A stretch of DNA of 42,778 nt from Bacillota bacterium (GTDB lineage Bacteria > Bacillota > JADQBR01): positions 1 to 42,778 of the forward strand of contig JADQBR010000009.1 in the NCBI GenBank assembly GCA_016278515.1, written 5' to 3'. Positions within the stretch are counted from its first letter, which is position 1. Each line of letters begins with the position of its first letter. Below are positions 11,942 through 36,730 of this stretch, one piece after another. The position numbers and the translations under genes were made by a program. Below the pieces are notes generated by a model. It saw only the letters and a program-made list of their open reading frames with translations, did no database searches and had not been told where the DNA came from.

Positions 11942-12005
11942 ATTAACTAAATTAACTAAATTTACTATCTTTAAAGAGCTAGTTAATTCGTTATCAGGGC
12001 AGGAA

Positions 12006-12033
12006 ATAGTTGTTATACGTAGAATACAACTAT
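12006..12033. other. Inverted repeat upstream of larB
   Basis: ATAGTTGT and ACAACTAT form an 8-bp inverted repeat separated by 12 nt, in the gap between the IclR gene and larB. No T-run follows, so it is more likely an operator or leader hairpin than a terminator. Its function is unknown. Confidence 0.4.
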
Positions 12034-12116
12034 ATCAAAAACTGAACAACGTTTGGTAATAACATACAGAAATATATTATCATGAAACTATAATTTAGAC
12101 ATAAAGGGTGAAAGCA

Positions 12117-12878: not shown

Positions 12879-14098
12879 TGAAGATAGCTCATTTTCAATG
12901 TTCGGCTGGTATCAGCGGCGATATGATGCTAGGTGCTTTAGTTGATGCAGGTTTGGACTTTGCCAGGCTCGAACAGGAAATCAATAAGCTTAATATATCC
13001 GGTTATCGGTTAGAACATCACAGGGTAGTAAAAAACGGTATTTCCGGTACCAAAGTAGATGTCATAATTAATGAAAAACACGTACATAGGCACCTGCGTG
13101 ATATTAAAGAGATTATAGAAAATAGCAATTTGGCTTCTTTAGTAAAAGAAAAATGCTCTATAGTATTCGGAAAGATAGCGGAAGCGGAAGCAAAGGTTCA
13201 TAATTCTACCAAGGAGGAGATTCACTTCCACGAAGTAGGCTCTTTGGATGCTATTATAGACGTTGTGGGCTCTGTTGTAGGTTTGGATCTATTAGGAGTA
13301 GAGAAGGTAACGGCTTCAAAAATACATGTTGGCACCGGTTATACAAAATGTGCCCATGGAACGATTCTTTTGCCGGCCCCGGCTACATTAGAATTGCTTC
13401 AGGGAGTTCCGGTTTACTGCCAGGGTATCGAGAAAGAACTTGTCACACCCACAGGGGCGGCACTTATCACTACCCTGGCGGAGAGCTTTGGTGAAATGCC
13501 GTCTATGTCCGTTACGGATATTGGCTACGGTGCCGGTACCAGAGATTTAGATATTCCTAATCTCTTGAGAATTTCTTTAGGCGAAGCGGCTGAAGATACA
13601 GGCAGTTTTCCAGACGTGCGTTTTGGAGGTCAAGGAGACATTCATCAGGCAGAGGCAATGATGTTGGAAGTTAATATTGATGACTTGAATCCTGAATTTT
13701 ACGATTATCTGTTTAGCAGGTTATTGGCAGAAGGGGCACATGATGTCTTTCTGCAGCCAATTCAAATGAAAAAGAATCGGCCGGCTGTCAAATTGAGTAT
13801 TCTAACGTATGCATCTCAGATGGAAAGGATTATGGAAACTGTTTTTCAAGAGACTAGTACTATTGGGGTAAGAGCGTACCCGGTTACCAAGTATATGCTA
13901 CCTTATGAAATTAAAGCATTGGCCACTAAATACGGAGATGTAAGGGTAAAAGTAGCCAGCTTAAATAATACTATTACTACTATAGCTCCTGAATATGAGG
14001 ACTGCCGTTCTAAGGCTGAATCTTATGGAGAGCCAATAAAAAATGTTTACGAGCATGTAAAATCTGAAGCAAAAAAGGCTTTTAAAAAAGACGAATAG
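12875..14098 (+). CDS. larC: LarC, CTP-dependent nickel insertase of nickel-pincer cofactor synthesis
   Basis: Inserts nickel into the bisthiocarboxylate nucleotide to give the pincer cofactor of LarA-type enzymes. It has 407 residues in one uninterrupted frame; in some Lactobacillus species the gene is split into larC1 and larC2 by a frameshift, which is not so here. The N-terminus CSAGISGDMMLGALVDAG, a His-rich HVHRHL segment around residues 69-74, and HFHEVGSLDAIIDVVGS around residues 116-132 are family hallmarks. The ATG overlaps the larB stop. Neither larE (sulfur transferase) nor a larA-type enzyme is present in the window, so the pathway must be completed from elsewhere. Confidence 0.94.
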   Translation: MMKIAHFQCSAGISGDMMLGALVDAGLDFARLEQEINKLNISGYRLEHHRVVKNGISGTKVDVIINEKHVHRHLRDIKEIIENSNLASLVKEKCSIVFGKIAEAEAKVHNSTKEEIHFHEVGSLDAIIDVVGSVVGLDLLGVEKVTASKIHVGTGYTKCAHGTILLPAPATLELLQGVPVYCQGIEKELVTPTGAALITTLAESFGEMPSMSVTDIGYGAGTRDLDIPNLLRISLGEAAEDTGSFPDVRFGGQGDIHQAEAMMLEVNIDDLNPEFYDYLFSRLLAEGAHDVFLQPIQMKKNRPAVKLSILTYASQMERIMETVFQETSTIGVRAYPVTKYMLPYEIKALATKYGDVRVKVASLNNTITTIAPEYEDCRSKAESYGEPIKNVYEHVKSEAKKAFKKDE

Positions 14099-14143: not shown

Positions 14144-14250
14144 GTGCTTTATCAGAAATAATATATTATAATGCAATATTTTTGGTGTAGCTAGGAAATT
14201 ACGCTACAAATGCCTTGTTGGGATATTAAATATGATTGGGAGGCGGAGAA

Positions 14251-15525
14251 ATGACGCAAAGATTGTTAGAACTTTATGATAGTATAAACCGTTTGGTACT
14301 CTACAGGGATATACTGGACGACGGGCTAGTTAAAAAGGTCAATAAACTGTTTGAAGTGAGTCTAAAAGAATATGATTCTGCAGTTGCTTCCAGACTGTAC
14401 CATGAAATTTGTTATGATTTAATTGATTATGCCAAAAAGGAAGGATTAACGGGTGATCTCTGGAAAGAATATCTTTTGAGGCTGATTATGCTAAACGAAA
14501 ATGCCTTTAGTCTTGAGTGTGAACAATTGGGCAGTAATTTAAGTAAAAGTCTATATAAGGCAGCAAAACACGATTTTGACATCTTAATAAACTTGTATTT
14601 TCTTGACTGGCGGGAATTTGGTTTTAGACCGTTAGATTTTGTCTGTGACTTTGTAAGGAGCCAACAATTGGAGGGTCCTTATATTCAGATTAAAAGCGCT
14701 CTCGAAAGGGATGGTTCTACAGAGAAAGTTGTAGACGCAGTTATCAATTATTATCATGTTCAGGGCTGCGGTGATATAGGTTTGTACCATGCTTTTCGCT
14801 GGGGCGAGAATGAGGGTTTAATACCGATTAAACAACCAGATCCCATTACCTTTCAGGATTTAATCGGTTATCAGGATCAGAAAGAACAGTTGATTGAGAA
14901 CACCGAAAGCTTTGTTCGAGGCAGTTTGGCAAATAATATCTTATTATTTGGAGATCGGGGAACGGGAAAATCTTCATCGGTGAAGGCCTTGGGCAATAAA
15001 TATGCTTCCCAAGGATTAAGGTTGATAGAATTGTCCCAACAGCAGTTAAAAAATTTCCCGGATCTACTACAAAAGCTGCGGGACCGGGGTCAACGTTTTA
15101 TCATATTCATTGATGATTTATCTTTCGAAGAATTTGAAACCGAATACAAGTACTTAAAAGCAATTATTGAAGGTAGTATTGAGGCCAAGCCGGATAACGT
15201 CTTGATCTATGCCACGTCCAACCGACGAAACTTAATCAAAGAAAGCTGGAAAGAACGGGAAGGCGACGATATTCACGCAGCAGATTCTATGCAGGAGAAG
15301 CTTTCGTTGGTGGATCGTTTTGGTATTACTATAACCTTTACTTCGCCTAATCAGGAAGAATACTTGGCAATAGTAACTGGTTTAGCTGACACATTTGGTT
15401 TGGAAATGCCCCTCGGCGATCTGAGGGAACAGGCATTAAAATGGGCGGTTTGGAATAAAGGTAGATCAGGAAGAACGGCACGGCATTTTATTAACTATCT
15501 GTTGGGGAAAGAAAATTCAAACTGA
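14251..15525 (+). CDS. DUF815-family AAA+ ATPase
   Basis: A P-loop ATPase of the DUF815 family, 424 residues from ATG 14251, which has GGGAGGCGG 5-8 nt upstream; the frame also offers TTG at 14236. The N-terminal 190 residues are helical and unassigned. The ATPase part shows FQDLIGYQDQKEQLIENTESF, Walker A GDRGTGKSS around residues 232-240, Walker B FIIFIDDLSF around 284-293, and a sensor-type IYATSNRRNL. It ends with GRSGRTARHFINYL. DUF815 proteins occur widely in bacteria as stand-alone ATPases of poorly known function. Terminators on both sides suggest a single-gene unit. No partner is evident. Confidence 0.87.
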   Translation: MTQRLLELYDSINRLVLYRDILDDGLVKKVNKLFEVSLKEYDSAVASRLYHEICYDLIDYAKKEGLTGDLWKEYLLRLIMLNENAFSLECEQLGSNLSKSLYKAAKHDFDILINLYFLDWREFGFRPLDFVCDFVRSQQLEGPYIQIKSALERDGSTEKVVDAVINYYHVQGCGDIGLYHAFRWGENEGLIPIKQPDPITFQDLIGYQDQKEQLIENTESFVRGSLANNILLFGDRGTGKSSSVKALGNKYASQGLRLIELSQQQLKNFPDLLQKLRDRGQRFIIFIDDLSFEEFETEYKYLKAIIEGSIEAKPDNVLIYATSNRRNLIKESWKEREGDDIHAADSMQEKLSLVDRFGITITFTSPNQEEYLAIVTGLADTFGLEMPLGDLREQALKWAVWNKGRSGRTARHFINYLLGKENSN

Positions 15526-15760: not shown

Positions 15761-17200
15761 GTGAAGCCAAAAGATATTATGCGGCCTTTTCAGGCCACAT
15801 TAGGGCCCGAAAGCACATTGAAGGCAGCTATAGAGGCCATGCAGAAATGCGCTTTAAATATTATTCCCGTAACGGATGACTGGGGTCAGCTGCTGGGGAT
15901 TCTTACCCGGTCAAAACTGTTTGACTTGCTGCTACAGGAACAGCCTTTGTCGACGGTTATCAAACCTTTTTACGATACGGATGTAATTACTGTTCCCGAG
16001 GATGAGTTTTATGATGTAGAAAAATTATTTGCGGAATTCATATCAAATGAGGGAAATAGCAAGTTTTCTAAGATAAGTACAGTAATCATTACGGATAACA
16101 GTGGGACGAATCTGACCGGGGTTATTACTAAAGAAGAGCTTATTCAATATTTGATGAAAGAGGCGTATCGGTTAAAAAAACAATTGGAGTTGGCCTTGGA
16201 GGCAACACAGGAAGAACTACGGCGGGTCAAGCTAAAACAAAAGTCCAAATATTCTTTTCGCCAGTTTATTACTAATGATTCTTATATGAAGCAGTTGATT
16301 AGCATGGCGCAGAAGGCGGCGCGGCAGAACTCCACTGTTTTAATTCAGGGTGAAAGCGGAACCGGTAAGGAGTGGTTTGCCCATGCCATACATCAGGCCA
16401 GTCAGCGGGCCGGGGGGCCATTTATCACTGTAAACTGTGCGGCTTTCCCTGAACACTTGTTGGAGTCAGAATTTTTCGGTTATGAGGAAGGAGCCTTTAC
16501 TGGGGCAAATAAGCAGGGTAAGTACGGAAAACTAGACTTGGCCCATGGCGGAACGCTGTTTCTGGATGAAATCGGAGACATGTCCTTATCCCTACAATCA
16601 AAATTGCTGAGAGTACTTCAGGAAAGAGAGTTTTACCGAGTTGGTGGTACGGAGAAAATATCCGTAGACGTGCGAGTCATTGCAGCAACCAACCAGTCCT
16701 TGGAAAATCTGGTCACTGAGAAAAGGTTTCGGGAAGACCTGCTTTATCGTCTTAACGTTGTTACATTCAATCTGCCGCCATTGAGAGAGCGAGGAGAGGA
16801 CTTAACTCTATTGGCGGACAATTTTATCAAAGAGCTGGATATTACCCTCAATACTAATATTAAGGGTATAAATAACGATGCTTTGGACAGGCTGAAAAGC
16901 TACCATTGGCCGGGAAACATTAGGGAACTGAGAAACGTAATCGAACGAATGATGATTTTTACGGAACAAGGAGAAATTGGTATTTGTCATATGCCGGACA
17001 AAATAAAAGGCTCGGGCTGGCAGGCGGCAGGCGGGGATAATCCGTCCCAGGTAAATGATATTATGGAGCAAAAACAAAGAGAAGTTATCCTAGAAGTATT
17101 AGGACAGACCGGCGGCAACAAGACCCAAGCAGCTAAAACGCTGGGTATGAGTCGATCTACACTATACGAAAAGATAAAGAAATTTGACTTAACGTATTAA
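15761..17200 (+). CDS. Sigma-54-dependent transcriptional activator with CBS-pair sensor
   Basis: Enhancer-binding protein that would remodel sigma-54 RNA polymerase by ATP hydrolysis. It has 479 residues. Order: two CBS motifs (about residues 1-60 and 68-132), a short coiled segment (about 134-165), the AAA+ domain (about 168-400) with Walker A GESGTGKE, the sigma-54 contact loop GAFTGA (about 244-249) and Walker B LFLDEIGD, then a Fis-type helix-turn-helix at the end (GNKTQAAKTLGMSRSTLYEK). No receiver, GAF or PAS domain is present, so the CBS pair is the sensor; such pairs often bind adenosine nucleotides. The start is GTG 15761 behind a long G-rich ribosome site. A sigma-54-like promoter lies 175 nt downstream before the next operon, its obvious target. 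Confidence 0.95.
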   Translation: MKPKDIMRPFQATLGPESTLKAAIEAMQKCALNIIPVTDDWGQLLGILTRSKLFDLLLQEQPLSTVIKPFYDTDVITVPEDEFYDVEKLFAEFISNEGNSKFSKISTVIITDNSGTNLTGVITKEELIQYLMKEAYRLKKQLELALEATQEELRRVKLKQKSKYSFRQFITNDSYMKQLISMAQKAARQNSTVLIQGESGTGKEWFAHAIHQASQRAGGPFITVNCAAFPEHLLESEFFGYEEGAFTGANKQGKYGKLDLAHGGTLFLDEIGDMSLSLQSKLLRVLQEREFYRVGGTEKISVDVRVIAATNQSLENLVTEKRFREDLLYRLNVVTFNLPPLRERGEDLTLLADNFIKELDITLNTNIKGINNDALDRLKSYHWPGNIRELRNVIERMMIFTEQGEIGICHMPDKIKGSGWQAAGGDNPSQVNDIMEQKQREVILEVLGQTGGNKTQAAKTLGMSRSTLYEKIKKFDLTY

Positions 17201-17375: not shown

Positions 17376-17391
17376 CGGCATAGAAATTGCT
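17376..17391 (+). promoter_or_regulatory. Sigma-54-type promoter of the acid-degradation operon
   Basis: CGGCAT-AGAAA-TTGCT has GG at 17377-17378 and GC at 17389-17390, the required spacing of 10 nt between the dinucleotides. The -12 half is consensus; the -24 half differs at two positions. A start near 17402 would place the GGGAGGAGGGG ribosome site and ATG 17426 just downstream. Confidence 0.68.
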
Positions 17392-17425: not shown

Positions 17426-17893
17426 ATGGTCGTTGAGGGGAAAAAAGGTTATCGGTTCAAGCCCTACTCAATGGTAGTGGAACGAGGTAAAATCAAGGAA
17501 TTTGCCATGGCAGTCGGTGATGATAATCCCATATATTATGAAAAAGACGCAGCGACAAAAGCAGGATTTAAGGACATTACCGTACCGCCTACTTTTTTTA
17601 CGGTTATTGACATGTGGGCAGGTCCAAATTTTGAGGAAATTTGTCGTGAGTTGGAGTTAGACCCGGTGATGGTACTGCATGGAGAGCAAGAATACGAGTA
17701 TTTTTACAATATTTATCCAGGAGATGAAATTAAGACTGTATCTACTGTTCAGGATGTAGCTACTCGCACAGGCAGTATGGGCGGAATGAACATCTATTTA
17801 ATGGAAACAAACTATTACAACCAAAACGGACAGAAGGTAATGATTGCTCGCTCCAAGATCATTGAAAGAGTTAGGGGGCAAAGGAATGAATAA
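17426..17893 (+). CDS. MaoC-like hydratase, N-terminal-type subunit
   Basis: Hot-dog-fold protein of 155 residues resembling the N-terminal MaoC dehydratase half (FAS1-like, HadA/HadC type). It probably pairs with the next gene product to hydrate an enoyl-CoA. The family opening is clear: GYRFKPYSMVVERGKIKEFAMAVGDDNPIYYEKDAA, followed by VPPTFFTVIDMW and an LHGEQEYEYFYNIYPGD stretch. ATG 17426 was chosen because GGGAGGAGGGG ends 4-5 nt before it; upstream in-frame codons would run into the promoter. It is the first gene of a ten-gene run and overlaps the next gene by 8 nt. This half usually lacks the complete catalytic Asp-His pair, which the partner provides. Confidence 0.87.
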   Translation: MVVEGKKGYRFKPYSMVVERGKIKEFAMAVGDDNPIYYEKDAATKAGFKDITVPPTFFTVIDMWAGPNFEEICRELELDPVMVLHGEQEYEYFYNIYPGDEIKTVSTVQDVATRTGSMGGMNIYLMETNYYNQNGQKVMIARSKIIERVRGQRNE

Positions 17894-18290
17894 AAAGTAC
17901 GAAGTGGGGTATCACTTTCCTTCCCTAACGAAGCCTGCGGTTACTAAAGTGCAGCTTGCCAAGTATGCAGGGGCCTCCGGCGATTTTAACCCGCTGCATC
18001 TAGACGATAGAGTGGGGAAAGAGGCAGGAATTGGGGGCGTAATAGCCCACGGCATGTTAATTATGGGCATGGCCGGTGAAGCAATTGGCAGTTGGGTACC
18101 GAGGATATCGTTAAAGAGTTTTTCTGTACGATTTAAGGCTATGACGGTTCCCGGAGAGGTTATTACATTGACAGGCAGGGTAGTAGATAAGGAAAAGACT
18201 GATAACGGCAGTTTAATCATCTGTCAGGTGGAGGCTAAAAATCATTCGGATGAGATTAAGTTAAGTGGACGATTTGCGGCGCTGTTGTGA
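17886..18290 (+). CDS. MaoC-like enoyl-CoA hydratase subunit
   Basis: Second hot-dog subunit, 134 residues from ATG 17886, behind AGGGGGCAAAGG and overlapping the previous gene by 8 nt. It has the R-hydratase catalytic signature: GASGDFNPLHLDDRVGKEAG (about residues 27-46), with the Asp and His of the D-x-N-P-x-H motif, then GVIAHGMLIMGMAGEAI. The size and pairing are those of a heterodimeric (R)-specific enoyl-CoA hydratase as in HadAB/HadBC or ChsH1-ChsH2. In the operon it would perform the hydration step of the beta-oxidation-like route. The stereochemistry is assumed from family membership, not seen. Confidence 0.9.
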   Translation: MNKKYEVGYHFPSLTKPAVTKVQLAKYAGASGDFNPLHLDDRVGKEAGIGGVIAHGMLIMGMAGEAIGSWVPRISLKSFSVRFKAMTVPGEVITLTGRVVDKEKTDNGSLIICQVEAKNHSDEIKLSGRFAALL

Positions 18291-18322
18291 GTTGTTGAAT
18301 ATGAGAAGGGGGCGGTTAGTTG

Positions 18323-19135
18323 ATGAGCTATTTAAGCGGTAAGGTCGCCATTATTACCGGGGCAGGCAGGGGGATTGGCAAGGCGGCAGCCTTACTCTTT
18401 GCAAAAGAAGGAGCAAAGGTAGTGGTGACAGATATTGATGAACAGTCGGTTAAAGAGACTGAGGCTGAAATAAAGAAATTGGACGGTGAGGCCCTTAGTT
18501 TAAGCGGGGATATTACAGCGCCTGATTTTCCGGGTCAATTAATAAACACGTCAGCTGCCGAGTTTGGCAGACTGGATATTTTGGTTAACAACGCGGGCTA
18601 TACCTGGGACGGTATGATTCATAAGATGTCCGATAAGCAGTTCCAAGCCATGCTGGACGTTCATCTGTTGGCGCCGTTCCGTCTAATTAGGGCAGCGGCT
18701 CCATATATGCGTGATAAGGCAAAGGAAGAGATGACCCGAGGCCAGGTAGTGCAGCGAAAGATTGTCAATGTGACGTCTGTTGCAGGCTTGATGGGTAATG
18801 TGGGCCAGGCAAATTATTCTGCAGCAAAAGCTGGGATAGTTGGCTTTACCAAAACTATCGCTCGAGAATGGGGTCCATATAACATTAACTGCAACGCAGT
18901 CGGCTTTGGCATTGTTGACACCCGTTTAACCCAAGCCAAAGAAATGGGAGAGATGGTTGACGGTAAGCCGGTGGGGATTCCGGAAAAGATGCGTTCCATG
19001 ATGATTAAGATGGTTCCTCAGCAGCGATCCGGTACTATCGAGGAGGCTGCAGCAGGCATTTTCTATTTGGCATCGCCCCTGTCTGATTATGTAAATGGGG
19101 AAGTACTGAAGGTAGACGGTGGATTTTACACTTAA
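18323..19135 (+). CDS. Short-chain dehydrogenase/reductase (3-hydroxyacyl-CoA dehydrogenase-like)
   Basis: Cytoplasmic NAD(P)-dependent oxidoreductase of the classical SDR family, 270 residues. It has the TGAGRGIG cofactor motif (about residues 13-20), NNAG (about 88-91), and the catalytic Ser with YxxxK in NVTSVAGLMGNVGQANYSAAKAG (about 149-171). ATG 18323 was preferred to the adjacent TTG 18320 since AAGGGGG lies 8-10 nt upstream. Placed after the MaoC pair and before the thiolase-like genes, it most likely oxidises the 3-hydroxyacyl-CoA. An insertion around residues 133-143 (RDKAKEEMTRGQ) is longer than in FabG and is common in multifunctional-type SDRs. Confidence 0.92.
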   Translation: MSYLSGKVAIITGAGRGIGKAAALLFAKEGAKVVVTDIDEQSVKETEAEIKKLDGEALSLSGDITAPDFPGQLINTSAAEFGRLDILVNNAGYTWDGMIHKMSDKQFQAMLDVHLLAPFRLIRAAAPYMRDKAKEEMTRGQVVQRKIVNVTSVAGLMGNVGQANYSAAKAGIVGFTKTIAREWGPYNINCNAVGFGIVDTRLTQAKEMGEMVDGKPVGIPEKMRSMMIKMVPQQRSGTIEEAAAGIFYLASPLSDYVNGEVLKVDGGFYT

Positions 19136-19152
19136 GAAAGGAGGGGGGAGCT

Positions 19153-20565
19153 TTGGCAGGAATAACAGGTTACGGGGCTAGAATCCCGTATTTCCGGTTA
19201 GAGAAAAAAAAGATTGGTGAAGCATGGGGTACTTATGGTGCCGGGGAAAAGGCCGTGGCAAATCATGATGAAGACAGTGTTTCTCTTGCTGTGGCGGCGG
19301 CTGTTGACTGCGGTAAAGAGACGGCGGATGCCGACTGTCTTTACTTGGCTACAACCACCGGGCCTTATGGGGAAAAGGGCTCGGCCAGTACAGCCGCCAT
19401 GGCGCTAGGTCTTAAAAAAGACGTACGTACAATGGATATTACCGGAAGCCTCAAAGGGGGCATATCAGGTTTGTTGTCCGGGTTGGAGCAGGCCGAATCC
19501 GGCATCAAAACCTTGGTTGCTATGTCTGATTGCAGGCTGGGCGCGCCTCAGGGACCTTACGAGCAGGTACTGGGGGACGGAGCTGCAGCGTTTGTTTTAG
19601 GTAATGATGACATTATTGCTGAGTTAGAGGCCAGTGAAAGCGCTAATCAAGAAGTGATGGCTTACTGGCGCAGCAGCACGGATCGTTTCCTTCAGACTGG
19701 GGAAGACCGTTTTGCATCCACTAAGTATGTGGAAATATTAATGGCTGCTATGGGCAATTTTGCTAAACAAACTGGGGCAACCATCAAGGATTTTGACAAA
19801 GTTGTCTTGGATGCACCTTCTGCTAAGCTTCACAAGTTAACTGCTAGGATGTTGAAGGTATCGCCTGAACAATTAATTGAGGGAATGTATGACAGCATTG
19901 GCCATACCGGCTGTGCCAATGTGGGCCTCATGCTGGTTAGTGCCTTAAGTAATGCTGAACCCGGGGAGCGAATACTAGTCGCTGCCTTTGGTGAAGGGTG
20001 CCATATTGCAGCTTTTAAGGTTACGGAAAAGATTGTCTCCTTTAAACCAAAGCGCCCATTAAAAGAACAGTTGGCGAATAAGGATAATAGCGTCAGATAC
20101 ACGGACTATCTTAAGTGGCGAGGTATTATCGAGACGGAACCACCTCGAAGACCTGCAGTGCCTAAGCCTTCGCAGCCGGCTCTCTACCGGGGATATGATC
20201 AGAATTTAGGATTTATAGGCAGCCGGTGCAAAAAATGCGGTACGCCTCAGTTTCCAAAACAAAGAGTTTGCGTTCATTGCCAGGCGAAAGATGAAATGGA
20301 GGATTATTCTTTCAAGAATAAAACAGCCAGGCTAGCGACATACACCGTGGATTACTTGGCGGCCTCTGTGGCTCCGCCTACTGTCATTGGGGTAGTGGAC
20401 TTTCAAGGCGGCGGCAGAATGCTGGCAGAAGTTACTGACTGCCGCCCTGAACAGATGAGGATAGGCATGGAATTGGATTTTTGCTTTAGAAGGCTGCAGG
20501 TGGCCGACGGAATAAGCAACTATTTTTGGAAAGCGGTACCTAAGCGAGGTGGGACCAATGACTAG
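19153..20565 (+). CDS. HMG-CoA synthase-like protein fused to DUF35 zinc-ribbon/OB domain
   Basis: Two-part protein of 470 residues. The N-terminal 320 residues look like the HMG-CoA synthase/thiolase fold (ITGYGARIPYFRLEKK opening, DSVSLAVAAAVDC, GDGAAAFVLG). The C-terminal part (about 345-465) is a DUF35 module with a rubredoxin-like zinc ribbon (Cys359, Cys362, Cys373, Cys376) and an OB domain. Where HMG-CoA synthases have the nucleophilic Cys (NACYGG), this protein reads TGSLKGG (about 97-103), so the usual acyl-Cys chemistry is unlikely. The start is TTG 19153 behind GGAGGGGGGAG. It overlaps the thiolase-like gene by 8 nt. In archaea separate HMG-CoA synthase, thiolase and DUF35 proteins form a complex that channels acyl-CoA; a fused version of that assembly is the best guess. 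Confidence 0.85.
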   Translation: MAGITGYGARIPYFRLEKKKIGEAWGTYGAGEKAVANHDEDSVSLAVAAAVDCGKETADADCLYLATTTGPYGEKGSASTAAMALGLKKDVRTMDITGSLKGGISGLLSGLEQAESGIKTLVAMSDCRLGAPQGPYEQVLGDGAAAFVLGNDDIIAELEASESANQEVMAYWRSSTDRFLQTGEDRFASTKYVEILMAAMGNFAKQTGATIKDFDKVVLDAPSAKLHKLTARMLKVSPEQLIEGMYDSIGHTGCANVGLMLVSALSNAEPGERILVAAFGEGCHIAAFKVTEKIVSFKPKRPLKEQLANKDNSVRYTDYLKWRGIIETEPPRRPAVPKPSQPALYRGYDQNLGFIGSRCKKCGTPQFPKQRVCVHCQAKDEMEDYSFKNKTARLATYTVDYLAASVAPPTVIGVVDFQGGGRMLAEVTDCRPEQMRIGMELDFCFRRLQVADGISNYFWKAVPKRGGTND

Positions 20566-21739
20566 AGGTATTAAAGATAAGGTTGCTATTATCGGCATGG
20601 GCTGCACTCAATTTGGAGAGCACTGGGATAAAAGCACCGACGACCTGTTGGTGGATGCGGCTTATGAAGCTTTTGCTGATGCCGGTTTAGGCCCAGAGGA
20701 CATAGATGCATACTGGCTGGGTACCATGCAGTCCGGTTATGCCGGGATTGTTTTATCAGGGCCACTAAAGTCCCAGTATAAGCCGGTTACTAGGGTTGAG
20801 AATATGTGCGCAACTGGATCGGACGCATTTCGTAACGCCTGTTATGCAGTTGCCAGTGGCGCATATGATATGGCGATGGCTATTGGTGTTGAAAAGCTGA
20901 AGGATTCCGGCTATAGCGGTCTCACTATTGCCGAGCCCCCTCATGATGGCACCAAGTTGGATGTTACTGCTCCGGCTGCATTCTCGCTGCTGGCGCCGGC
21001 GTACTTTAACAAGTTTGGCGTAGACCCCAAGCAGGGGAAAGAAGTGCTGGCTAAGATTGCGTGGAAAAATCATAAGAACGGCAGCCTAAATCCAAAGGCT
21101 CAATACCGGACGGAAATTCCCATGGAAAAAATCTGTTCATCGCCGATGGTAGCGGCACCGCTGGGTATTTTGGACTGTTCCGGCGTCGCTGACGGTGCGG
21201 CGGCAGCTATTATTGTCCGGGCCGAAGATGCTGAAAAATATTGCAAACAGCCCACCTTTGTTAAAGCCTTATCCGTTTCTGCAGGTCCGGGCCATGGTGC
21301 ACTGCATCAAGATTTCGATTTTACTTCCATTCCGGAAAACTGTGCAGCGGCAAAGGACGCCTATGACCAAGCCGGTATTAAAAACCCCAGGCAGGAGTTG
21401 AGCATGGCAGAAGTGCATGACTGTTTTACACCGACCGAGTTGGTTATTTATGAAGACTTAGGTTTTAGTAAACGGGGTGAAGGATGGAAGGATGTTTTGG
21501 CCGGAACATTTGAACTGGCGGGTGAACTGCCGGTGAATCCGGATGGCGGTCTTAAATCTTTCGGTCACCCAATCGGCGCCAGTGGCTTGCGGATGCTTTA
21601 TGAAGCTTATTTGCAGTTTCAGGGAAAGGCCGGTCAGCGGCAGCTTAAAGATCCCAAACTGGCATTAACTCATAACTTAGGCGGATATCCTTGGCAGTGC
21701 GTTTGTTTTATTTCCATCGTCGGTTCTCAGCTGGGCTAA
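20558..21739 (+). CDS. Thiolase-like acyl-CoA acyltransferase (SCP-x type)
   Basis: Thiolase-superfamily protein of 393 residues from ATG 20558 (GAGGTGGG upstream), overlapping the previous gene by 8 nt. The nucleophilic Cys84 is present in NMCATGSDAFRNA and the catalytic His337 in SFGHPIGASG. A second conserved region reads AEVHDCFTPTELVIYEDLG. The C-terminal CxG motif of classical thiolases is replaced by THNLGGYPWQC, as in SCP-x-type members. It should cleave the 3-oxoacyl-CoA, or do a retro-aldol as Ltp2 does, probably in complex with the DUF35 fusion encoded just upstream. The retained Cys and His favour thiolysis. The substrate is unknown. Confidence 0.9.
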   Translation: MTRGIKDKVAIIGMGCTQFGEHWDKSTDDLLVDAAYEAFADAGLGPEDIDAYWLGTMQSGYAGIVLSGPLKSQYKPVTRVENMCATGSDAFRNACYAVASGAYDMAMAIGVEKLKDSGYSGLTIAEPPHDGTKLDVTAPAAFSLLAPAYFNKFGVDPKQGKEVLAKIAWKNHKNGSLNPKAQYRTEIPMEKICSSPMVAAPLGILDCSGVADGAAAAIIVRAEDAEKYCKQPTFVKALSVSAGPGHGALHQDFDFTSIPENCAAAKDAYDQAGIKNPRQELSMAEVHDCFTPTELVIYEDLGFSKRGEGWKDVLAGTFELAGELPVNPDGGLKSFGHPIGASGLRMLYEAYLQFQGKAGQRQLKDPKLALTHNLGGYPWQCVCFISIVGSQLG

Positions 21740-21769
21740 TTAAAAATTGATGATGAAGGGAGGTAAGTG

Positions 21770-22909
21770 ATGAAGCGCAGACTACTAGAGGAAGAGCATA
21801 GAATTTTTCAAACAGCAGTCAGATCTTTTCTGGACAAGGAAGCCGTTCCCTATTTTGACCAGTGGGAAGAAGAACGGATGGTGCCCCGGGAATTTTGGAT
21901 TAAACTGGGAAAGCAGGGGTACCTATGTCCCCAGGCAGCCGAACAGTATGGAGGGATAGGAGCCGATTTCATCTATAATGTCATTATTAACGAAGAATTT
22001 GCACGGGTAGGTTTAGGACTGATGGGTGTTGGCCTCCATAACGATATCATAGCGCCCTATTTGGAGACCTACGGCAGTACTGAGCAAAAGGAACATTGGC
22101 TGCCAAAGTGTATCTCGGGTGAAAGTATTTTAGCCATTGCTATGACCGAACCGGGGGCGGGTAGTGACCTGCAGGCAATCAAAACGACTGCTTTCAGGGA
22201 TGGAGACAGCTATATCCTTAACGGCCAGAAAACTTTTATTTCCAATGGTATTTGTTCGGATTTGGTGTTGGTTGCCTGTAAGACGGACCCGAAGGCCCAA
22301 CCGGCCTATAAAGGGATTAGCCTGATGCTGGTGGAACGAGATACACCCGGTTTCACCAGGGGCAGGAAAATGGACAAAATGGGTATGCATAGCCAGGATA
22401 CGGCGGAACTGTTCTTTGAGGATTGCCGGGTGCCGGCAGAAAACTTGATAGGTGAAGAAGGAAAAGGTTTCTACTACATGATGAACAGCTTGCCTCGGGA
22501 ACGGCTTGTGACAGCAATAACCTCCCAAGTGGCAGCAGAAGAGATGCTGCGAGAAACGTTAGAATATACCGGTATTCGAAAGGCTTTTGGTAGACCCCTC
22601 AAAGATCAGCAGCATATCCAATTTACGCTGGCGGAGCTCAAATCAGAGATTGTCTTAGGGCGAACATTCGTGGACCGAGTTATTGAAGCTTACCTGGCAG
22701 GCGAGGACATGGGTACCGAATCTTCAATAGCTAAGTGGTGGGTGACTGAGATGGCCAACCGGGTGGCGTACCAATGTTTGCAGCTCCACGGCGGCTACGG
22801 TTATATGGAGGAATATCCCATTGCCCGCTGGTACCGGGATATTCGCGTCACCCCAATATATGCCGGCAGCAACGAAATAATGAAAACCATCATCGCCCGT
22901 ACCCTTTGA
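21770..22909 (+). CDS. Acyl-CoA dehydrogenase (first of two)
   Basis: FAD-dependent acyl-CoA dehydrogenase of 379 residues that introduces the alpha-beta double bond and passes electrons to ETF. The start is ATG 21770 with AAGGGAGGT 6 nt upstream; the GTG just before it is in frame but too close. Family signatures: AMTEPGAGSDLQAIKT (about 122-137), the RKAFGRPL stretch, QLHGGYGYMEEYPIARWYRDIRV near the C-terminus, and the catalytic Glu in YAGSNEIMKTI. The stop codon lies in the first bases of the interspersed repeat at 22906-22992, which separates this gene from the second acyl-CoA dehydrogenase. Confidence 0.93.
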   Translation: MKRRLLEEEHRIFQTAVRSFLDKEAVPYFDQWEEERMVPREFWIKLGKQGYLCPQAAEQYGGIGADFIYNVIINEEFARVGLGLMGVGLHNDIIAPYLETYGSTEQKEHWLPKCISGESILAIAMTEPGAGSDLQAIKTTAFRDGDSYILNGQKTFISNGICSDLVLVACKTDPKAQPAYKGISLMLVERDTPGFTRGRKMDKMGMHSQDTAELFFEDCRVPAENLIGEEGKGFYYMMNSLPRERLVTAITSQVAAEEMLRETLEYTGIRKAFGRPLKDQQHIQFTLAELKSEIVLGRTFVDRVIEAYLAGEDMGTESSIAKWWVTEMANRVAYQCLQLHGGYGYMEEYPIARWYRDIRVTPIYAGSNEIMKTIIARTL

Positions 22910-22992
22910 ATTTGGGGTACCCGCAAGGGGCATATCCAAAACTCTAAAGCAACAAGTTGCTAAGAGTTTTGCTAACGGTTCTCAACTTGAAT
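22906..22992 (+). repeat. Interspersed palindromic repeat, copy E (single core)
   Basis: An 87-bp element with TTGAATTT at 22906-22913 and TTGAAT at 22987-22992, one hairpin core, and the GGGGTACCC left arm. It contains the TGA stop of the preceding gene and fills almost the whole gap between the two acyl-CoA dehydrogenase genes. It is the only copy inside an operon here. Confidence 0.95.
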
Positions 22993-23022
22993 AGTTATGT
23001 TAACTAGAAGGGAGATGCTTAA

Positions 23023-24261
23023 ATGTTTGATTTTATGATGACACCTGAGCAGAAAGCGCTGCAGCAGGAAACACGGGAATTTGTTAAAACCATTCCCAAA
23101 CAATTATTGGTTGATATGGATCAGGATAAGGTGCAATACCCCAGACAATATATCGAAGATCTTGCGGCCAGAAACCTGTTGGGTTTACGATTTCCAAAGG
23201 AATTTGGCGGTAGAGGGCTGGATTGGAGTACGGAGATTATTGCTTTGGAAGAAGTAGGTGTATTGGGGACTTCTTTAGGGTGCTTATTTTCGTTACCCAG
23301 TATTATTGGTGAGGCGATCAATAAATTTGGTACCCAGTCACAAAAAGAAAAATACTTGACGAAGATTACCTCAGGCGAATTGACGGTGGCGGAAGGACTA
23401 ACCGAACCGCGAGGCGGTTCTGATTTCTTTGGCAGCACTACTAAGGCTACCAAGGAAGGCGACCATTATATTATTAGAGGACAAAAGCGTTTTGTAGTCG
23501 GTGCCGAAGGTGCAGATCTATTCCTAATCTATGCCCGTACGGATGAAACTGTGCCGGCACACAAGGGTATAAGTGCATTTTTAGTTGAACGAGGTCCTGG
23601 GGTAAAAGCCGATTACATCTATGGACTAATGGGGACTCGCGGCGGAGGTGCCGGCCGACTAATCTTTGATGATGTAAAAGTTCCTGCAGAAAATATAGTA
23701 GGCGAGGAAAACGGGGCAACAGCAATATTTTATCAGATGATGATTCCCGAACGCATGACCAGTGCGGCCGGGGCCCTAGGCATGGGTAGGGCAGCCTTGG
23801 AGGTTGCAACAAGATACAGTGATCGCCGGAAAGCTTTTGGCCAACAAATAAGAAAATTTGAAGCTGTAAGTTTTAAAGTTGCAGACAGTATTACCAAGCT
23901 GGATGCTGCCCGAAGTCTTGTCTATAGCGCCGCTCAGGCAGTGGATCAAGGGGCACCGTCAGAGACTGCAAGGCGTATGGTTTCTGAGGCCAAAAAATTT
24001 GCAACTGACAGCGCGTGGGAGATCGTTAACCATGCCATGCAAATTATGGGTGGTATTGGTTATACGGATGTCTATCCGATCGAAAAATTATTAAGGGATA
24101 TTCGTTTAATTATGATTTGGACGGGAACTAACGAGATTATGGATTTGATTATTCAACATGAGTATTACAAAGAATTGTTAGGTGCAAAGGAAAATGTTCC
24201 CCGAGATGTGGAACACGATGCGGTCAATGCTGATGCGGTAGAAGAAAAAATATATGAATAG
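23023..24261 (+). CDS. Acyl-CoA dehydrogenase (second of two)
   Basis: A 412-residue acyl-CoA dehydrogenase, distinct in sequence from the one upstream. Signatures: [17 protein letters not shown] (about 125-141), [45 protein letters not shown], and the catalytic Glu in [12 protein letters not shown]. It also has a 30-residue polar tail beyond the usual end ([20 protein letters not shown]). ATG 23023 has AAGGGAG 8 nt upstream. Two neighbouring, unlike acyl-CoA dehydrogenases may form a heteromer, as ChsE1/ChsE2 do in steroid side-chain degradation, or may act on successive intermediates. Which of these holds cannot be decided from the sequence. Confidence 0.93.
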
Positions 24262-24274
24262 GGAGGTTTAATAA

Positions 24275-25768
24275 ATGGGAGAAGCTTTACACATGTTGTT
24301 AGAACGAAATGCGCGCAAGTACCCTAATGAATGCGGCGTATTGAGCCTGGAGTATCAAACGGAGTGGTCATGGCAGGAACTTAATCAAAGGGCAAACGGT
24401 GTGGCAGAAACTATGTTAAAGAAAGGTTTAAAGAAAGGTGACAGAGTGGCCATGGTTATTCCTAACCGTCCGGAATTTTTAGCCGTCTATTTCGGAGTGC
24501 TGAAAGCGGGAGGCGTTGTAGTCCCGGTAAATGTTCGTTTAGCCAAACCGGAAGTGGAGTACTTACTTAATGACAGTCAGGCTGTAGGTGCGGTGTTCGA
24601 TCCAGGCATGGGATTTTCCGGCCAAGAAATTTCAGAAAAGTGCGAAATATTGCAGTTTTATCTTACTATCCAGGAGCTGGAATACGGAAATTATGATGAC
24701 CCGGAGTTGGATATCTCAGTTTATGATGTAGCGGAAATATTATATACATCCGGAACTACGGGTAAACCAAAAGGAGTGGTACTGACTCATAATTGCGTAT
24801 ACGAAGTAGGGACCATGATGGCTTATGAAGCAGAGATAGAATATGGAGACCGGGCACTATTGCTGATGCCGTTGACACATTCTGCGCCCCTCAATTTATT
24901 TGTTATCGGCGCTGTTTACGCTGGGGCTGCGTGTGTGGTCGGAAACTTCACTACTCCTCAAGCCATTCTAAAAACCTGCCACGAAGCAAAAACTACTCAT
25001 TTTTTTGGTGCTCCGGTGGCTTATTTATTAGCCTTACAGATTGATAATTTTAACGATTATGATTTATCTAGTACTAAATTGTGGACTTACGGTGGTGCAC
25101 CCATGGCTAAAGAAGCCATACACAAAATAATGAGCAAGTTTCCTGGGAAATTCATGAGCCTTTATGGATTGACGGAAAGCGGACCTAATGGTGTAGCCAT
25201 GTATCATGAACAACACGAAGAGCATGCCGGCAGTATTGGTAATAAGGCGGCTGTCAACTGCGAGTACAAAGTGCTCACTGATGAGGGGAAAATTGCCGGT
25301 CCGGGGGAGAAAGGGGAGGTATACCTTAAATCGCCATCGGTGATGCTGGAGTATTTGAATAAACCTGAGGCCACTGAAGAGGTATTAGAGAACGGATGGA
25401 TTAAGACAGGAGATATTGCAGAAATTGATGATAAAGGATACCTTTGGATAATGGGACGAAAAAAAGATATTATTCTGTCAGGCGGGGTAAATGTTTATCC
25501 GAAAGAAATCGAAGATGCACTAGCCCAGCATTCTGCGGTAGCAGATGTAGCAGTAATAGGAGTTCCCCACAAGGATTGGGGAGAAACTGTCATGGCAGTT
25601 GTAGTACTGAAACCGGGAGTAGAAAAGCCGGATAAGAAAGAATTACAGGAGTTTTGTGGTAAATTTCTAGCGGACTTTAAGCTGCCTAGGATGATAAGAT
25701 TTGATGAGGCGATACCCAGAAATGCTTCGGGTAAAATCCTGAAACATTTAATTAGTAGAGACATATAA
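24275..25768 (+). CDS. Acyl-CoA synthetase (AMP-forming, class I adenylate-forming)
   Basis: ATP-dependent ligase that activates a carboxylic acid to its CoA thioester, 497 residues. Motifs: the P-loop YTSGTTGKPKGVVLTH (about 157-172), GLTESGPNG (about 296-304), and the hinge region GDIAEIDDKGYLWIMGRKKDIILSGG split by residues around 375-405. The catalytic Lys near the C-terminus is in RNASGKILKH. ATG 24275 has GGGAGG 8 nt upstream and follows the acyl-CoA dehydrogenase by 13 nt. It provides one way to start the pathway; the CaiB-type transferase at the operon end provides another. The acyl chain cannot be predicted. Confidence 0.93.
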   Translation: MGEALHMLLERNARKYPNECGVLSLEYQTEWSWQELNQRANGVAETMLKKGLKKGDRVAMVIPNRPEFLAVYFGVLKAGGVVVPVNVRLAKPEVEYLLNDSQAVGAVFDPGMGFSGQEISEKCEILQFYLTIQELEYGNYDDPELDISVYDVAEILYTSGTTGKPKGVVLTHNCVYEVGTMMAYEAEIEYGDRALLLMPLTHSAPLNLFVIGAVYAGAACVVGNFTTPQAILKTCHEAKTTHFFGAPVAYLLALQIDNFNDYDLSSTKLWTYGGAPMAKEAIHKIMSKFPGKFMSLYGLTESGPNGVAMYHEQHEEHAGSIGNKAAVNCEYKVLTDEGKIAGPGEKGEVYLKSPSVMLEYLNKPEATEEVLENGWIKTGDIAEIDDKGYLWIMGRKKDIILSGGVNVYPKEIEDALAQHSAVADVAVIGVPHKDWGETVMAVVVLKPGVEKPDKKELQEFCGKFLADFKLPRMIRFDEAIPRNASGKILKHLISRDI

Positions 25769-25773
25769 ACTTT

Positions 25774-25795
25774 AGGGCGCTGCTAGCGGCGCCCT
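25774..25795 (+). other. GC-rich hairpin between ligase and MBL genes
   Basis: AGGGCGCTG pairs with CGGCGCCCT around CTAG, with one G-U pair. There is no T-run, so it may be an RNA-processing or attenuating hairpin within the operon rather than a full terminator. Confidence 0.5.
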
Positions 25796-25853
25796 ATCTG
25801 ATTAGCAGGAAAAAGTATAATTATTTTGAATACTTACAAAGAGAGGTGATTGT

Positions 25854-26822
25854 ATGATTGAAGAAGTGTTACCAAACTTGTACAGGCTGGAAGCGCCACT
25901 GCCCAATAATCCACTTAAGGCTATTAACTCCTACGTTATAAAAGGGCATGACAGAAATCTTATGGTTGATACCGGTATGAACAGAGAAGAGTGTTTAGAT
26001 GCACTAACAGCTGGGCTTCAGGAATTAGAGGTAAAGCTTGAGGAGACTGATTTTTTTATAACTCACATGCATGCGGATCATTCCGGCCTGGTAGCTCAAT
26101 TGTCAACAAAAGAATCAAAGATTTTCTGCGGCGATGCTGACGCAGTGGTAATTAATCACGGCATAGATTGGGAAGAATTATTAGAACATGCTCGGATGAC
26201 CGGTTTTCCCGCAATAGAGTCGAGAGAGGCTATTAACCGGCATCCCGGGTACAAATATAGCGGGAAAGGTCAGTTGAACATTTACTCGGTGAAGGATAAC
26301 GATTGTATTACAGTTGGTGATTATACCTTTCAATGCATTGAGACGCCGGGACATACCTATGGTCACATCTGCCTTTACGAACCGGACAAAAAGATTTTGA
26401 TTTCAGGTGATCACATATTAAGCAATATCACCCCAAACATTTCCCAATGGTTGGATGATGACAAATGTATGGAAGATTACATGAGTAGTTTGGATAAGGT
26501 CTACCACTATGATGTTGATATAGTGCTGCCAGGCCATCGTCGGATTATTTATGACCATAGGAAAAGAATAGATGAGCTGAAGGAACATCATAAGAGCAGA
26601 AACAATGAAATTTTAGGACTTCTTAACAGCAAGGGTAAAACCGCTTATCAAATGGCTTCGGAAATGCCTTGGGATTTGACCTATAAGACATGGGAGCAGT
26701 TTCCCATTCCACAGAAATGGTTTGCCACAGGGGAGGCCAATGCTCATTTGAAATATCTAGAAGGGCAGGGTCTAGTGGAAAAAAGCATAGAGAATAGTAA
26801 TTTTGTTTATAGGTTGCCGTAG
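25854..26822 (+). CDS. MBL-fold metallo-hydrolase
   Basis: Metallo-beta-lactamase-fold hydrolase of 322 residues. The metal site is intact: THMHADH (His71, His73, Asp75, His76), then ETPGHTYGH (about 162-170), ISGDHIL with the bridging Asp, and LPGHRR. The C-terminal 80 residues (KTAYQMASEMPWDLTYKTWEQFP and after) look like the winged-helix tail of LACTB2-like proteins. ATG 25854 has AGAGAGGTG 5-8 nt upstream. Within a CoA-ester operon it could be a thioesterase or lactonase; family membership does not say. It follows the ligase by 85 nt with a hairpin between, and precedes the CoA-transferase by 40 nt. Confidence 0.88.
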   Translation: MIEEVLPNLYRLEAPLPNNPLKAINSYVIKGHDRNLMVDTGMNREECLDALTAGLQELEVKLEETDFFITHMHADHSGLVAQLSTKESKIFCGDADAVVINHGIDWEELLEHARMTGFPAIESREAINRHPGYKYSGKGQLNIYSVKDNDCITVGDYTFQCIETPGHTYGHICLYEPDKKILISGDHILSNITPNISQWLDDDKCMEDYMSSLDKVYHYDVDIVLPGHRRIIYDHRKRIDELKEHHKSRNNEILGLLNSKGKTAYQMASEMPWDLTYKTWEQFPIPQKWFATGEANAHLKYLEGQGLVEKSIENSNFVYRLP

Positions 26823-26862
26823 AACGGAAAATATCATTTGATTTTCGTTGGGGGTATAGGTA

Positions 26863-28008
26863 GTGTACGAATTTCTGAAAGAAATGCGTATTTTAGACTT
26901 GACCAGACTACTTCCGGGTGGTTATGCAACACAGCTTTTGGCCGATTTGGGTGCAGAGGTTTTGAAAGTGGAAGATCCTTGGCAGGGTGACTACATGCGT
27001 TGGATGGAGCCACATTTTCCAGGCACAAAGGAAAGCAGCCTGTTTTGGGGACTAAATCGTAATAAGAAAAGTATCAAATTAAACTTAAAAAGCAAAACGG
27101 ATAAAGAAGTATTTCTAAAGCTTGTGGGTAAGTATGACGTTGTGATAGAGGGTTTTAGGCCTGGTGTAATGGAAAAGCTGGGCTTGGGATACGAGGTTTT
27201 GAAAGAGGTTAATCCTAGAGTTATACTTTGCTCTGTATCCGGCTACGGACAAGATGGTCCGTACAAGGACCGGGTAGGCCACGATATAAATTATAATGCC
27301 ATCGCGGGTGTTCTTGGTTTAACCGGCAAGGAAGACGGCCCGCCTGCCATTCCTGCGGTGCAGATTGCAGATATTGGCGGTGGGGCGCTAATGTCAGTCA
27401 TCGGTATTCTAACCGCTTATATCAATCGTCAGCATACTGGACAAGGCCAATACATAGATATTTCTATGTTGGATGGGGTAGTTTCCTGGATGTCCATGCT
27501 TCTTATGCAGCATACCGCCGGTGATTCCAGCCTGGCCCGGGGCCAGTCCCTGCTTAATGGCGGCTACCCTTGCTATAGCATTTATGAAACAAAAGATGAA
27601 AAATATATGAGCTTGGGAGCTTTGGAACCGAAGTTTTGGGAGAATTTTTGTGAAATAGTTGATAGGGATGATCTGCTGCCACAACAGTTTTCCCGGGAGG
27701 CTGAAATTAAAGAAGAAGTTGCAGTAATTTTTAAGAGTAAAACACGGGATCAATGGACCAAGAGTTTTGCTGATAGAGACGTCTGCTGCGAGCCCGTTTT
27801 GGACATTGGAGAAACAATTAATCACCCACAGGTGGTATTTAGGAAATTATTAACCGAACTGCCCCATCCTGTAGCCGGTGCGGTAAAAGTTGCCAGTAAT
27901 CCTATTAAGTTTAATGAGAAGGAAACAGTTATTGATCAGCAGCCCCCGGGTCACGGGGAGCATACTAAAGAGGTGTTGGAGGATTTGGGTATTATTTTAG
28001 CAGAATAG
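26863..28008 (+). CDS. CaiB/BaiF family (class III) CoA-transferase
   Basis: Moves CoA from a donor thioester to a free acid without ATP. It has 381 residues, the family length. The opening is typical: MRILDLTRLLPGGYATQLLADLGAEVLKVE (written across residues 8-37). Next come NRNKKSIKLNLKSK, a GFRPGVMEKLGLGYE segment, and the catalytic Asp in QIADIGGGALMSVIG (about residue 169). GTG 26863 has GGGGG 8 nt upstream and no closer ATG fits the family N-terminus. As the last gene of the ten-gene run it would recycle CoA from a pathway product, such as an acyl-CoA, to the incoming acid. This is analogous to BbsEF in benzylsuccinate activation. Confidence 0.93.
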   Translation: MYEFLKEMRILDLTRLLPGGYATQLLADLGAEVLKVEDPWQGDYMRWMEPHFPGTKESSLFWGLNRNKKSIKLNLKSKTDKEVFLKLVGKYDVVIEGFRPGVMEKLGLGYEVLKEVNPRVILCSVSGYGQDGPYKDRVGHDINYNAIAGVLGLTGKEDGPPAIPAVQIADIGGGALMSVIGILTAYINRQHTGQGQYIDISMLDGVVSWMSMLLMQHTAGDSSLARGQSLLNGGYPCYSIYETKDEKYMSLGALEPKFWENFCEIVDRDDLLPQQFSREAEIKEEVAVIFKSKTRDQWTKSFADRDVCCEPVLDIGETINHPQVVFRKLLTELPHPVAGAVKVASNPIKFNEKETVIDQQPPGHGEHTKEVLEDLGIILAE

Positions 28009-35656: not shown

Positions 35657-35672
35657 TGGCACAGTTATTGCT
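35657..35672 (+). promoter_or_regulatory. Sigma-54-type promoter, near-perfect
   Basis: TGGCAC-AGTTA-TTGCT, with GG at 35658-35659 and GC at 35670-35671, is an essentially consensus -24/-12 promoter. A start near 35683 leaves a short leader with the GGAGGG ribosome site before ATG 35717. Confidence 0.88.
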
Positions 35673-35716
35673 TAAGTAGTATAGACAATTAAAATTTATT
35701 ATATGGAGGGACAGAT

Positions 35717-36595: not shown

Positions 36596-36730
36596 GAAGA
36601 GGCGCGAGACGATAATGGGCCTGTTCCCTACCAGAGACACTCTGGATTTAGCCGGTTAAAATGAAAGACATTGATGATTGAACTTAAACGTTTACTGCTT
36701 AATCTTTAGTGGTAAATAAAGGAATTAGGG

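Follow-up and report, generated by a model that had tools for sequence, protein, structure and literature searches.

Sources of alpha-methyl-branched acids include isoprenoids, methyl-branched lipids, hydrocarbons and drugs, and in peroxisomes 2-methyl-branched acids are handled by AMACR, MFE-2 (D-bifunctional protein) and SCPx, together with a branched-chain acyl-CoA oxidase. Here, we describe a locus of related gene content on contig JADQBR010000009.1 of an anaerobic Bacillota bacterium (assembly GCA_016278515.1), of which positions 1 to 42,778 were analyzed (hereafter, the window). Ten plus-strand open reading frames (ORFs) fill positions 17426–28008 and encode a complete beta-oxidation set, bearing out the catabolic logic proposed in a preliminary description of this DNA. 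We read the locus as a candidate sigma-54-controlled operon for (R)-specific beta-oxidation of alpha-methyl-branched acyl-CoA, and give this reading a probability of about 0.58; in functional terms, it is best seen as a putative bacterial equivalent of the AMACR/MFE-2/SCPx route in peroxisomes. The evidence consists of gene content, catalytic residues and their losses, synteny and linkage, from which we infer the substrate class, the direction of the pathway, its stereochemistry, complex formation and co-transcription.

Like the peroxisomal route, the window brings together a racemase-type enzyme, an (R)-hydratase, a short-chain dehydrogenase/reductase (SDR) and an SCP2-type thiolase, and some related clusters carry outright MFE-2 halves. 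Unlike that route, it has a dehydrogenase rather than an oxidase, a HadAB-like hydratase, a FabG-like SDR and a thiolase accompanied by a fusion of DUF35 with a pseudo-hydroxymethylglutaryl-CoA synthase (HMGS), and these are encoded in a bacterial sigma-54 operon that is known here from its sequence. The chemistry is known, and the gene set is a new variation on it, one that supplies a concrete, testable enzyme set for branched-acid breakdown.

Other described systems share parts of this set. In the 6esq and PhlACB complexes, as in the window, a thiolase is combined with an HMGS-fold protein and DUF35; in PhlACB, PhlA lacks the catalytic Cys and Glu, and PhlC, of the thiolase fold, is the sole catalytic subunit (PMC6392133). 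The window differs in that its HMGS-like and DUF35 parts form one polypeptide, its context is catabolic, and its operon contains no mevalonate or phloroglucinol genes. The bbs operon shares an acyl-CoA dehydrogenase, an SDR, a DUF35-associated thiolase and alpha-substituted intermediates, whereas the window has a racemase-type enzyme in place of the CoA-transferase, MaoC proteins in place of crotonase, and an added HMGS-like domain. The igr operon and the Sal/Ltp2 aldolases share the MaoC pair, DUF35 and a thiolase-fold enzyme, but the window has thiolase rather than aldolase residues, an SDR, and a DUF35 domain that is not fused to MaoC. Finally, anaerobic beta-oxidation of branched acids has been studied in syntrophic degraders (Narihiro et al. 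2016, PMC5017805); genome G100 carries the same fusion and thiolase in a type-2 cluster (see below). Branched-chain fatty acid breakdown by syntrophic anaerobes was called unresolved in 2016, and the genes then proposed for 2-methylbutyrate are of the crotonase/3-hydroxybutyryl-CoA dehydrogenase type, unlike those of the window (PMC5017805).

Proposed route and its substrate

Pfam and NCBIfam searches confirmed the families named in the preliminary description: two MaoC proteins, an SDR, DUF35 (here within the HMGS-like fusion), an SCP2-type thiolase, two acyl-CoA dehydrogenases (ACD1 and ACD2), an AMP ligase, a metallo-beta-lactamase (MBL) hydrolase and a family III protein of the CoA-transferase superfamily. 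In the proposed route, the AMP-forming acyl-CoA ligase (24275–25768; AMP-binding, 253.5 bits), to which activation is best assigned, would convert the acid to its CoA ester. The family III enzyme (26863–28008) would interconvert the (2R) and (2S) epimers, so that both could reach a stereospecific dehydrogenase, and ACD1 (21767–22909), which is of the long-chain acyl-CoA dehydrogenase (LCAD) type, would form the 2-methyl-enoyl-CoA. A heterodimer of MaoC1, a HadA-like hot-dog subunit (17426–17893; FAS1_DH_region, 117 bits), and MaoC2, a HadB-like (R)-specific enoyl-CoA hydratase (17886–18290, with the ATG at 17886 taken as the start; MaoC_dehydratas, 73.8 bits), would hydrate this intermediate to the (3R)-hydroxy compound, which the SDR, a predicted NAD-dependent (R)-3-hydroxyacyl-CoA dehydrogenase (18320–19135), would oxidize to the 3-oxo compound. 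The SCP2-type thiolase (20549–21739; PRK06157 family, NF004810, 622.9 bits at a cut-off of 403) would then cleave the alpha-branched 3-oxoacyl-CoA to a shortened acyl-CoA and, if the branch is a methyl group, propionyl-CoA. The 470-aa HMGS-like/DUF35 fusion (19153–20565; ACP_syn_III_C, zf-ChsH2 and OB_ChsH2_C, with NF003274 at 198.6 bits) would bring the thiolase complex together and may also influence the form of its CoA or substrate cleft, a part played for PhlC by PhlA and PhlB. Three B12-dependent acyl-CoA mutases are encoded in the window genome (G000), so that propionyl-CoA, the expected product, or isobutyryl-CoA can be handled. At G000:C68:206110-211358, two acyl-CoA dehydrogenase genes adjoin a B12-dependent acyl-CoA mutase, suggesting a rearrangement of the isobutyryl-CoA or methylmalonyl-CoA type.

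The catalytic residues of the middle steps are distributed unevenly over the MaoC pair. The catalytic His of MaoC1 is replaced (GDDNPIY), and this subunit is therefore probably a non-catalytic partner; MaoC2 has an intact hydratase-2 motif (GDFNPLH), which is kept in all type-1 clusters described below. The pair is HadAB-like, with only a weak match of MaoC1 to the MFE-2 hydratase model (MFE-2_hydrat-2_N, 36.9 bits at a cut-off of 27). The FabG-like SDR has the Ser-Tyr-Lys residues and an Asp (Asp38) after strand 2, which suggests NAD as the cofactor.

This gene set points to a medium- to long-chain acid with an alpha-methyl branch as the likeliest substrate. The preliminary description had guessed at a branched acid, a guess that is supported here and can be refined to alpha-methyl-branched acyl-CoA. 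Short 2-methyl acids are less probable candidates for a dedicated substrate because the fusion was not found in G133, probably the genome of the 2-methylbutyrate degrader 4J5 (PMC5017805), and the same result weakens 2-methylbutyrate as a specific candidate. The literature on anaerobic degradation of phytanic and pristanic acids yielded nothing usable.

Family III enzyme and its linkage to ACD1

By score alone, the family III enzyme falls between two functions, as it matches the M. tuberculosis racemase MCR (213.7 bits) and human SUGCT, a CoA-transferase (211.8 bits), nearly equally; a transferase-type paralog encoded at 36924 in the window is, by comparison, clearly closer to SUGCT (347 bits) than to MCR (141.7 bits). 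The catalytic bases proposed for MCR are His126, Asp156 and Glu241 (PMC12246613), and all three are present in the 26863–28008 enzyme as His140, Asp170 and Glu255. SUGCT and five transferase-type family III proteins of the window genome have the Asp only and lack the full triad, whereas every linked homolog that was checked has it. In a phylogenetic tree, the enzyme groups with MCR, apart from SUGCT and the transferase-type proteins (split support of 1.0). Because of the triad and this split, the gene very probably encodes an alpha-methylacyl-CoA racemase. The preliminary description had assigned it to CoA-transferase activation, an assignment that these residues do not favor. More broadly, some proteins annotated as 'CaiB/BaiF CoA-transferases' beside LCAD-type dehydrogenases would seem to be racemases. 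In G002 (contig C21, L100), which has no core cluster, the racemase-type gene (70 per cent identity) follows a DUF815 gene (59 per cent); in the window, a DUF815 gene (14236–15525) lies just upstream of the sigma-54 activator gene, and the G002 arrangement could preserve the original location of the racemase gene.

The racemase assignment bears directly on a bbs-type route for aryl- or alkylsuccinates, in which CoA transfer from succinyl-CoA, dehydrogenation, hydration and oxidation would be followed by DUF35-thiolase cleavage that returns succinyl-CoA. The chemistry would run in the same order, benzylsuccinyl-CoA is also alpha-substituted, and the DUF35 domain and thiolase are related to BbsA and BbsB, which is the part of the bbs likeness noted in the preliminary description that holds; the part that does not is the CoA-transferase, since the family III enzyme is of the racemase type and scores far lower against the solved benzylsuccinate CoA-transferase 9fn0 (123 bits) than against MCR (214 bits). 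The hydratase is moreover a MaoC rather than a crotonase, and the NCBIfam models fall far below their cut-offs (BbsA, 26.5 of 250 bits; BbsB, 151 of 750 bits). As the preliminary description had also noted for the locus, no fumarate-adding glycyl radical enzyme was found: none of the benzylsuccinate type (BssA- or MasD-like) was identified genome-wide. On this evidence, we consider the bbs-type route distinctly improbable. The window genome has two PFL-like enzymes: a hydroxyproline dehydratase, and a CutC/PFL2-like enzyme that is remote from the BssA and MasD of solved structure. The latter (G000:C33:44196-46133, L070) is a PFL-like glycyl radical enzyme that falls under every NCBIfam cut-off. 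It was considered as a BssA and rejected: it scores 749 bits against 8iof ('benzylsuccinate synthase alpha subunit'), but 168 bits against the genuine BssA 4pkc and 183 bits against MasD 9o8u.

ACD1 scores 567 bits against 2pg0 and 389 bits against human LCAD (8w0t), compared to 255 bits for isovaleryl-CoA dehydrogenase (IVD) and 244 bits for the short-chain enzyme (SCAD). Its catalytic base is Glu245 on helix G, and Ala366 occupies the position of Glu376 of the medium-chain enzyme (MCAD), which is the LCAD-type arrangement. LCAD-type dehydrogenases take branched substrates (PMC10573383). In a search across 398 genomes of the phylum with an ortholog threshold of E <= 1e-130, ACD1 orthologs were found at 20 loci in 17 genomes. 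At eight of these loci (G000, G001, G083, G100, G146, G329, G062 and G188), a racemase-type gene lies within 7 kb on the same contig (binomial P-value for at least 8 of 20 loci = 3e-6, at a generous 5 per cent chance per locus), and weaker racemase homologs adjoin ACD1 loci in two further genomes (G326 and G394). Most of the linked clusters are unrelated to the fusion, and several lack it altogether, with the order thiolase-ACD1-SDR-racemase-sigma-54 activator in G083 and racemase-DUF35-SCP2 thiolase-ACD1 in G329 and G062; therefore, the ACD1-racemase link is independent of the window locus. A racemase-type gene is also present in all 14 genomes with the full fusion, compared to 77 of 398 overall (Fisher P-value = 4e-11, with kinship ignored).

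Thiolase and the HMGS-like/DUF35 fusion

The window thiolase is related to solved thiolases of both synthetic and catabolic complexes (6esq_A, 193 bits; BbsB 7pxp_C, 154 bits) and, like all of its fusion-linked homologs, keeps Cys87, HDCF and GHPIGASG. Steroid aldolases have YDHF (Ltp2) or YDCY (Sal) in place of HDCF, which fits SCP2 thiolases (PMC12329534). Because the thiolase residues are kept and an SDR in the operon would oxidize the alcohol first, retro-Claisen thiolysis is expected rather than retro-aldol cleavage. This evidence weighs against a steroid side-chain module like igr with a final retro-aldol step, to which the preliminary description had also likened the locus. Such a module would account for the paired MaoC proteins and acyl-CoA dehydrogenases, as well as for DUF35 and a protein of the thiolase fold, but the HDCF, Cys87 and GHPIGASG residues are not those of Ltp2 or Sal, DUF35 is joined to an HMGS-like domain instead of MaoC, and an SDR accompanies every type-1 cluster. 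We regard the steroid module as extremely improbable.

In the preliminary description, the thiolase was listed with DUF35; both are present, but DUF35 is the C-terminal part of the 470-aa fusion and not a separate subunit, and the HMGS-like domain with its lost triad was overlooked, as were the sigma-54 regulator and promoter. The N-terminal ~330 aa of the fusion match the archaeal HMGS 6esq (6esq_I, 122 bits) and PhlA (101 bits), and the C-terminal ~120 aa, a DUF35 of zinc ribbon and OB fold, match the DUF35 partner in the same structure (6esq_E, 61 bits). The catalytic Glu, Cys and His of HMGS correspond to Thr, Leu and Asp in the window fusion. The Glu and Cys are replaced in 15 of 15 aligned fusions, as well as in the HMGS-like proteins that related clusters encode separately, and the catalytic His is present in none of the 15; an HMGS role was dropped on account of the loss of all three residues. 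The zinc-ribbon cysteines are retained, except in Sphingomonas. Most Bacillota-type fusions also have a Cys at position 127 (window 19531–19533), a site separate from that of the HMGS nucleophile. Because the catalytic residues are lost, as they are in PhlA of PhlACB, the fusion is most naturally understood, by analogy, as a catalytically dead scaffold of the thiolase. By extension, 'OB-fold / hydroxymethylglutaryl-CoA synthase' fusions beside SCP2 thiolases appear to be scaffolds and not synthases. If true, the racemase and scaffold readings would mend annotation in Bacillota, Pseudomonadota, Actinomycetota and haloarchaea.

The related 6esq and PhlACB complexes serve synthesis, and together with the HadAB/FabG-like parts and the HMGS/KAS III-like fold they lend something to a synthetic pathway (reverse beta-oxidation or polyketide-like), in which the thiolase complex would condense acyl units. 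However, the HMGS active site is dead, Asp38 of the SDR points to NAD and not NADP, the unit includes an acyl ligase and a racemase, and its sigma-54 control is of an inducible type. A synthetic role is accordingly rated very improbable.

Related clusters, likely sigma-54 control and neighboring genes

The block MaoC1-MaoC2-SDR-fusion-thiolase-ACD1 occurs in the same order, with 54–81 per cent identity, in G001, the one other genome of the same family in which the fusion was found. The G001 cluster consists of genes for the racemase-type enzyme (67 per cent), the activator (67 per cent), MaoC1 (57 per cent), MaoC2 (54 per cent), the SDR (74 per cent), the fusion (56 per cent), the thiolase (81 per cent) and ACD1 (69 per cent), and lacks ACD2, the ligase and MBL. 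The core gene set recurs, rearranged and with an adjoining sigma-54 activator, in G251, G342 and G177, the last two of which have ligase-type genes near the core. Because of this recurrence in four genomes, the window locus is not a chance assembly.

Two further types of cluster retain the fusion and thiolase but differ in the preceding steps. Type-2 clusters (G213, G100, G329, G062 and G188) have a canonical acyl-CoA dehydrogenase and an L-3-hydroxyacyl-CoA dehydrogenase, and in G100, where they were scanned, the further genes encode a two-subunit family I CoA-transferase and a crotonase. We take G100 to be Syntrophothermus lipocalidus, which is of the same phylum as the source organism of the window and known for the use of C4–C10 acids and isobutyrate. 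In type-3 clusters (G184, G349, G388, and Variovorax and Sphingomonas plasmids), an SDR and an MFE-2-type hydratase of ~280 aa precede the fusion and thiolase. The G184 pair scores 448 bits against the yeast (3R)-hydroxyacyl-CoA dehydrogenase, 314 bits against human HSD17B4 and 264 bits against hydratase 2 of human MFE-2, and matches to the MFE-2 hydratase model were obtained for the G388, Variovorax and Sphingomonas hydratases as well. One conserved thiolase pair is thus served by three different hydratase/dehydrogenase sets, which would be expected if these converge on 3-oxoacyl-CoA cleavage. On Rhodococcus and Mycobacterium avium plasmids (L060 and L065), the fusion and thiolase lie beside ring-hydroxylating dioxygenase subunits, an AMP ligase and three enoyl-CoA hydratases, loci that appear to be an aerobic pathway with the same cleavage pair.

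Several observations count against (R)-specific oxidation of alpha-methyl-branched acyl-CoA. In G251, G342 and G177, the racemase-type gene lies away from the core, and in G002 the racemase occurs although the core is missing; triad-bearing family III enzymes could act on other alpha-substituted acyl-CoAs; and the co-occurrence of fusion and racemase was calculated with no account of phylogeny. Judging by G133, short 2-methyl acids need no fusion, and the type-2 relative in S. lipocalidus leaves room for straight-chain use. These points would favor a generic (R)-specific beta-oxidation pathway for straight-chain acids of medium or long length, in which the racemase-type gene is an unrelated neighbor, especially as MaoC and SDR beta-oxidation is not limited to branched substrates and S. 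lipocalidus uses C4–C10 acids as well as isobutyrate. Against such a generic role stand the linkage of ACD1 to the racemase in diverse gene settings (8 of 20 loci), the LCAD type of ACD1, and the pairing of the same thiolase with MFE-2 halves in relatives; we judge it unlikely. The alpha-methyl-branched reading can also be taken further, to a dedicated, horizontally spread system of anaerobes for isoprenoid or other 2-methyl acids, in which a racemase, an LCAD-type dehydrogenase and (R)-specific MFE-2-like steps lead to an SCP2 thiolase held by the dead fusion. In that case, the fused pseudo-HMGS would represent a novel type of subunit, one that confers on a thiolase its specificity for alpha-branched 3-oxoacyl-CoA. 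We propose this extension tentatively, as its chances fall somewhat short of even.

The ten co-oriented ORFs of the preliminary description are real, but they are not one evolutionary unit. In G001, genes for ACD2 (82 per cent identity) and the ligase (70 per cent) are adjacent to each other ~35 kb from the core, and they are paired in G251 too (ligase, 51 per cent). Because this pair stands apart from the core in both genomes, the window operon appears to be a composite of the core and a separate ACD2-ligase module. ACD2 (23023–24261) has the helix-G base (MIPERM) and a Thr at the Glu376 position. The MBL-fold hydrolase, a possible thioesterase (25854–26822; Lactamase_B, 78 bits), is 25 per cent identical (E = 4e-30) to an MBL protein that adjoins a racemase-type gene on a Rhodococcus plasmid. 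ACD2, the ligase and MBL are best explained as accessory modules that the window genome has recruited. The GC content is 47–50 per cent in the MaoC2-ACD1 genes (17886–22909), 41 per cent in MaoC1, and about 40–45 per cent in most flanking genes; the higher value of the core may reflect a separate origin or expression level.

The operon is likely regulated by the sigma-54-dependent activator encoded just upstream (15761–17200, plus strand; CBS, AAA+ and Fis-type HTH domains, with Sigma54_activat at 243.8 bits, CBS at 43.6 bits, and HTH_8), whose G001 ortholog also lies directly upstream of the cluster. Between this gene and MaoC1, at 17376–17391 on the plus strand, is a -24/-12 element with the pattern and spacing of a sigma-54 promoter (CGGCAT-N5-TTGCT; GG-N10-GC). 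It ends 35 nt before the ATG at 17426, which is preceded by a strong ribosome-binding site. By chance, a shuffled strand would be expected to contain about 2.4 matches of equal quality; since isolated matches are this common, the case for the promoter rests on position and conservation. Specifically, G001 has a site (TGGCATCGTATTTGCA) at the equivalent position, the layout of a GG-N10-GC promoter 3' of the activator gene is common to both genomes, and similar sites precede the first gene of other related clusters. Terminators were considered in the 113-nt gap before ACD2 (22910–23022) and the 85-nt gap before MBL (25769–25853), but the stable hairpin in each is not accompanied by a T-run on the plus strand. 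The transcript may or may not run on through the last four genes.

Elsewhere in the window, a perfect sigma-54 site (TGGCACAGTTATTGCT, 35657–35672) lies ahead of a 3-hydroxyacyl-CoA dehydrogenase gene (35717), and the region to 41468 also encodes the SUGCT-like CoA-transferase (36924), a TRAP DctM protein and an NMT1-like binding protein; 35657–41468 is probably a second sigma-54-controlled carboxylate module. Two further loci lie upstream of the operon. At 11174–14098, the gene for an IclR regulator precedes those for an AIRC/LarB-like protein and the nickel-inserting protein LarC, a combination that resembles lactate racemase maturation. At 5313–8861, three genes encode the FAD, 2Fe-2S and Mo subunits of a molybdenum hydroxylase that belongs to the xanthine/CO dehydrogenase family.

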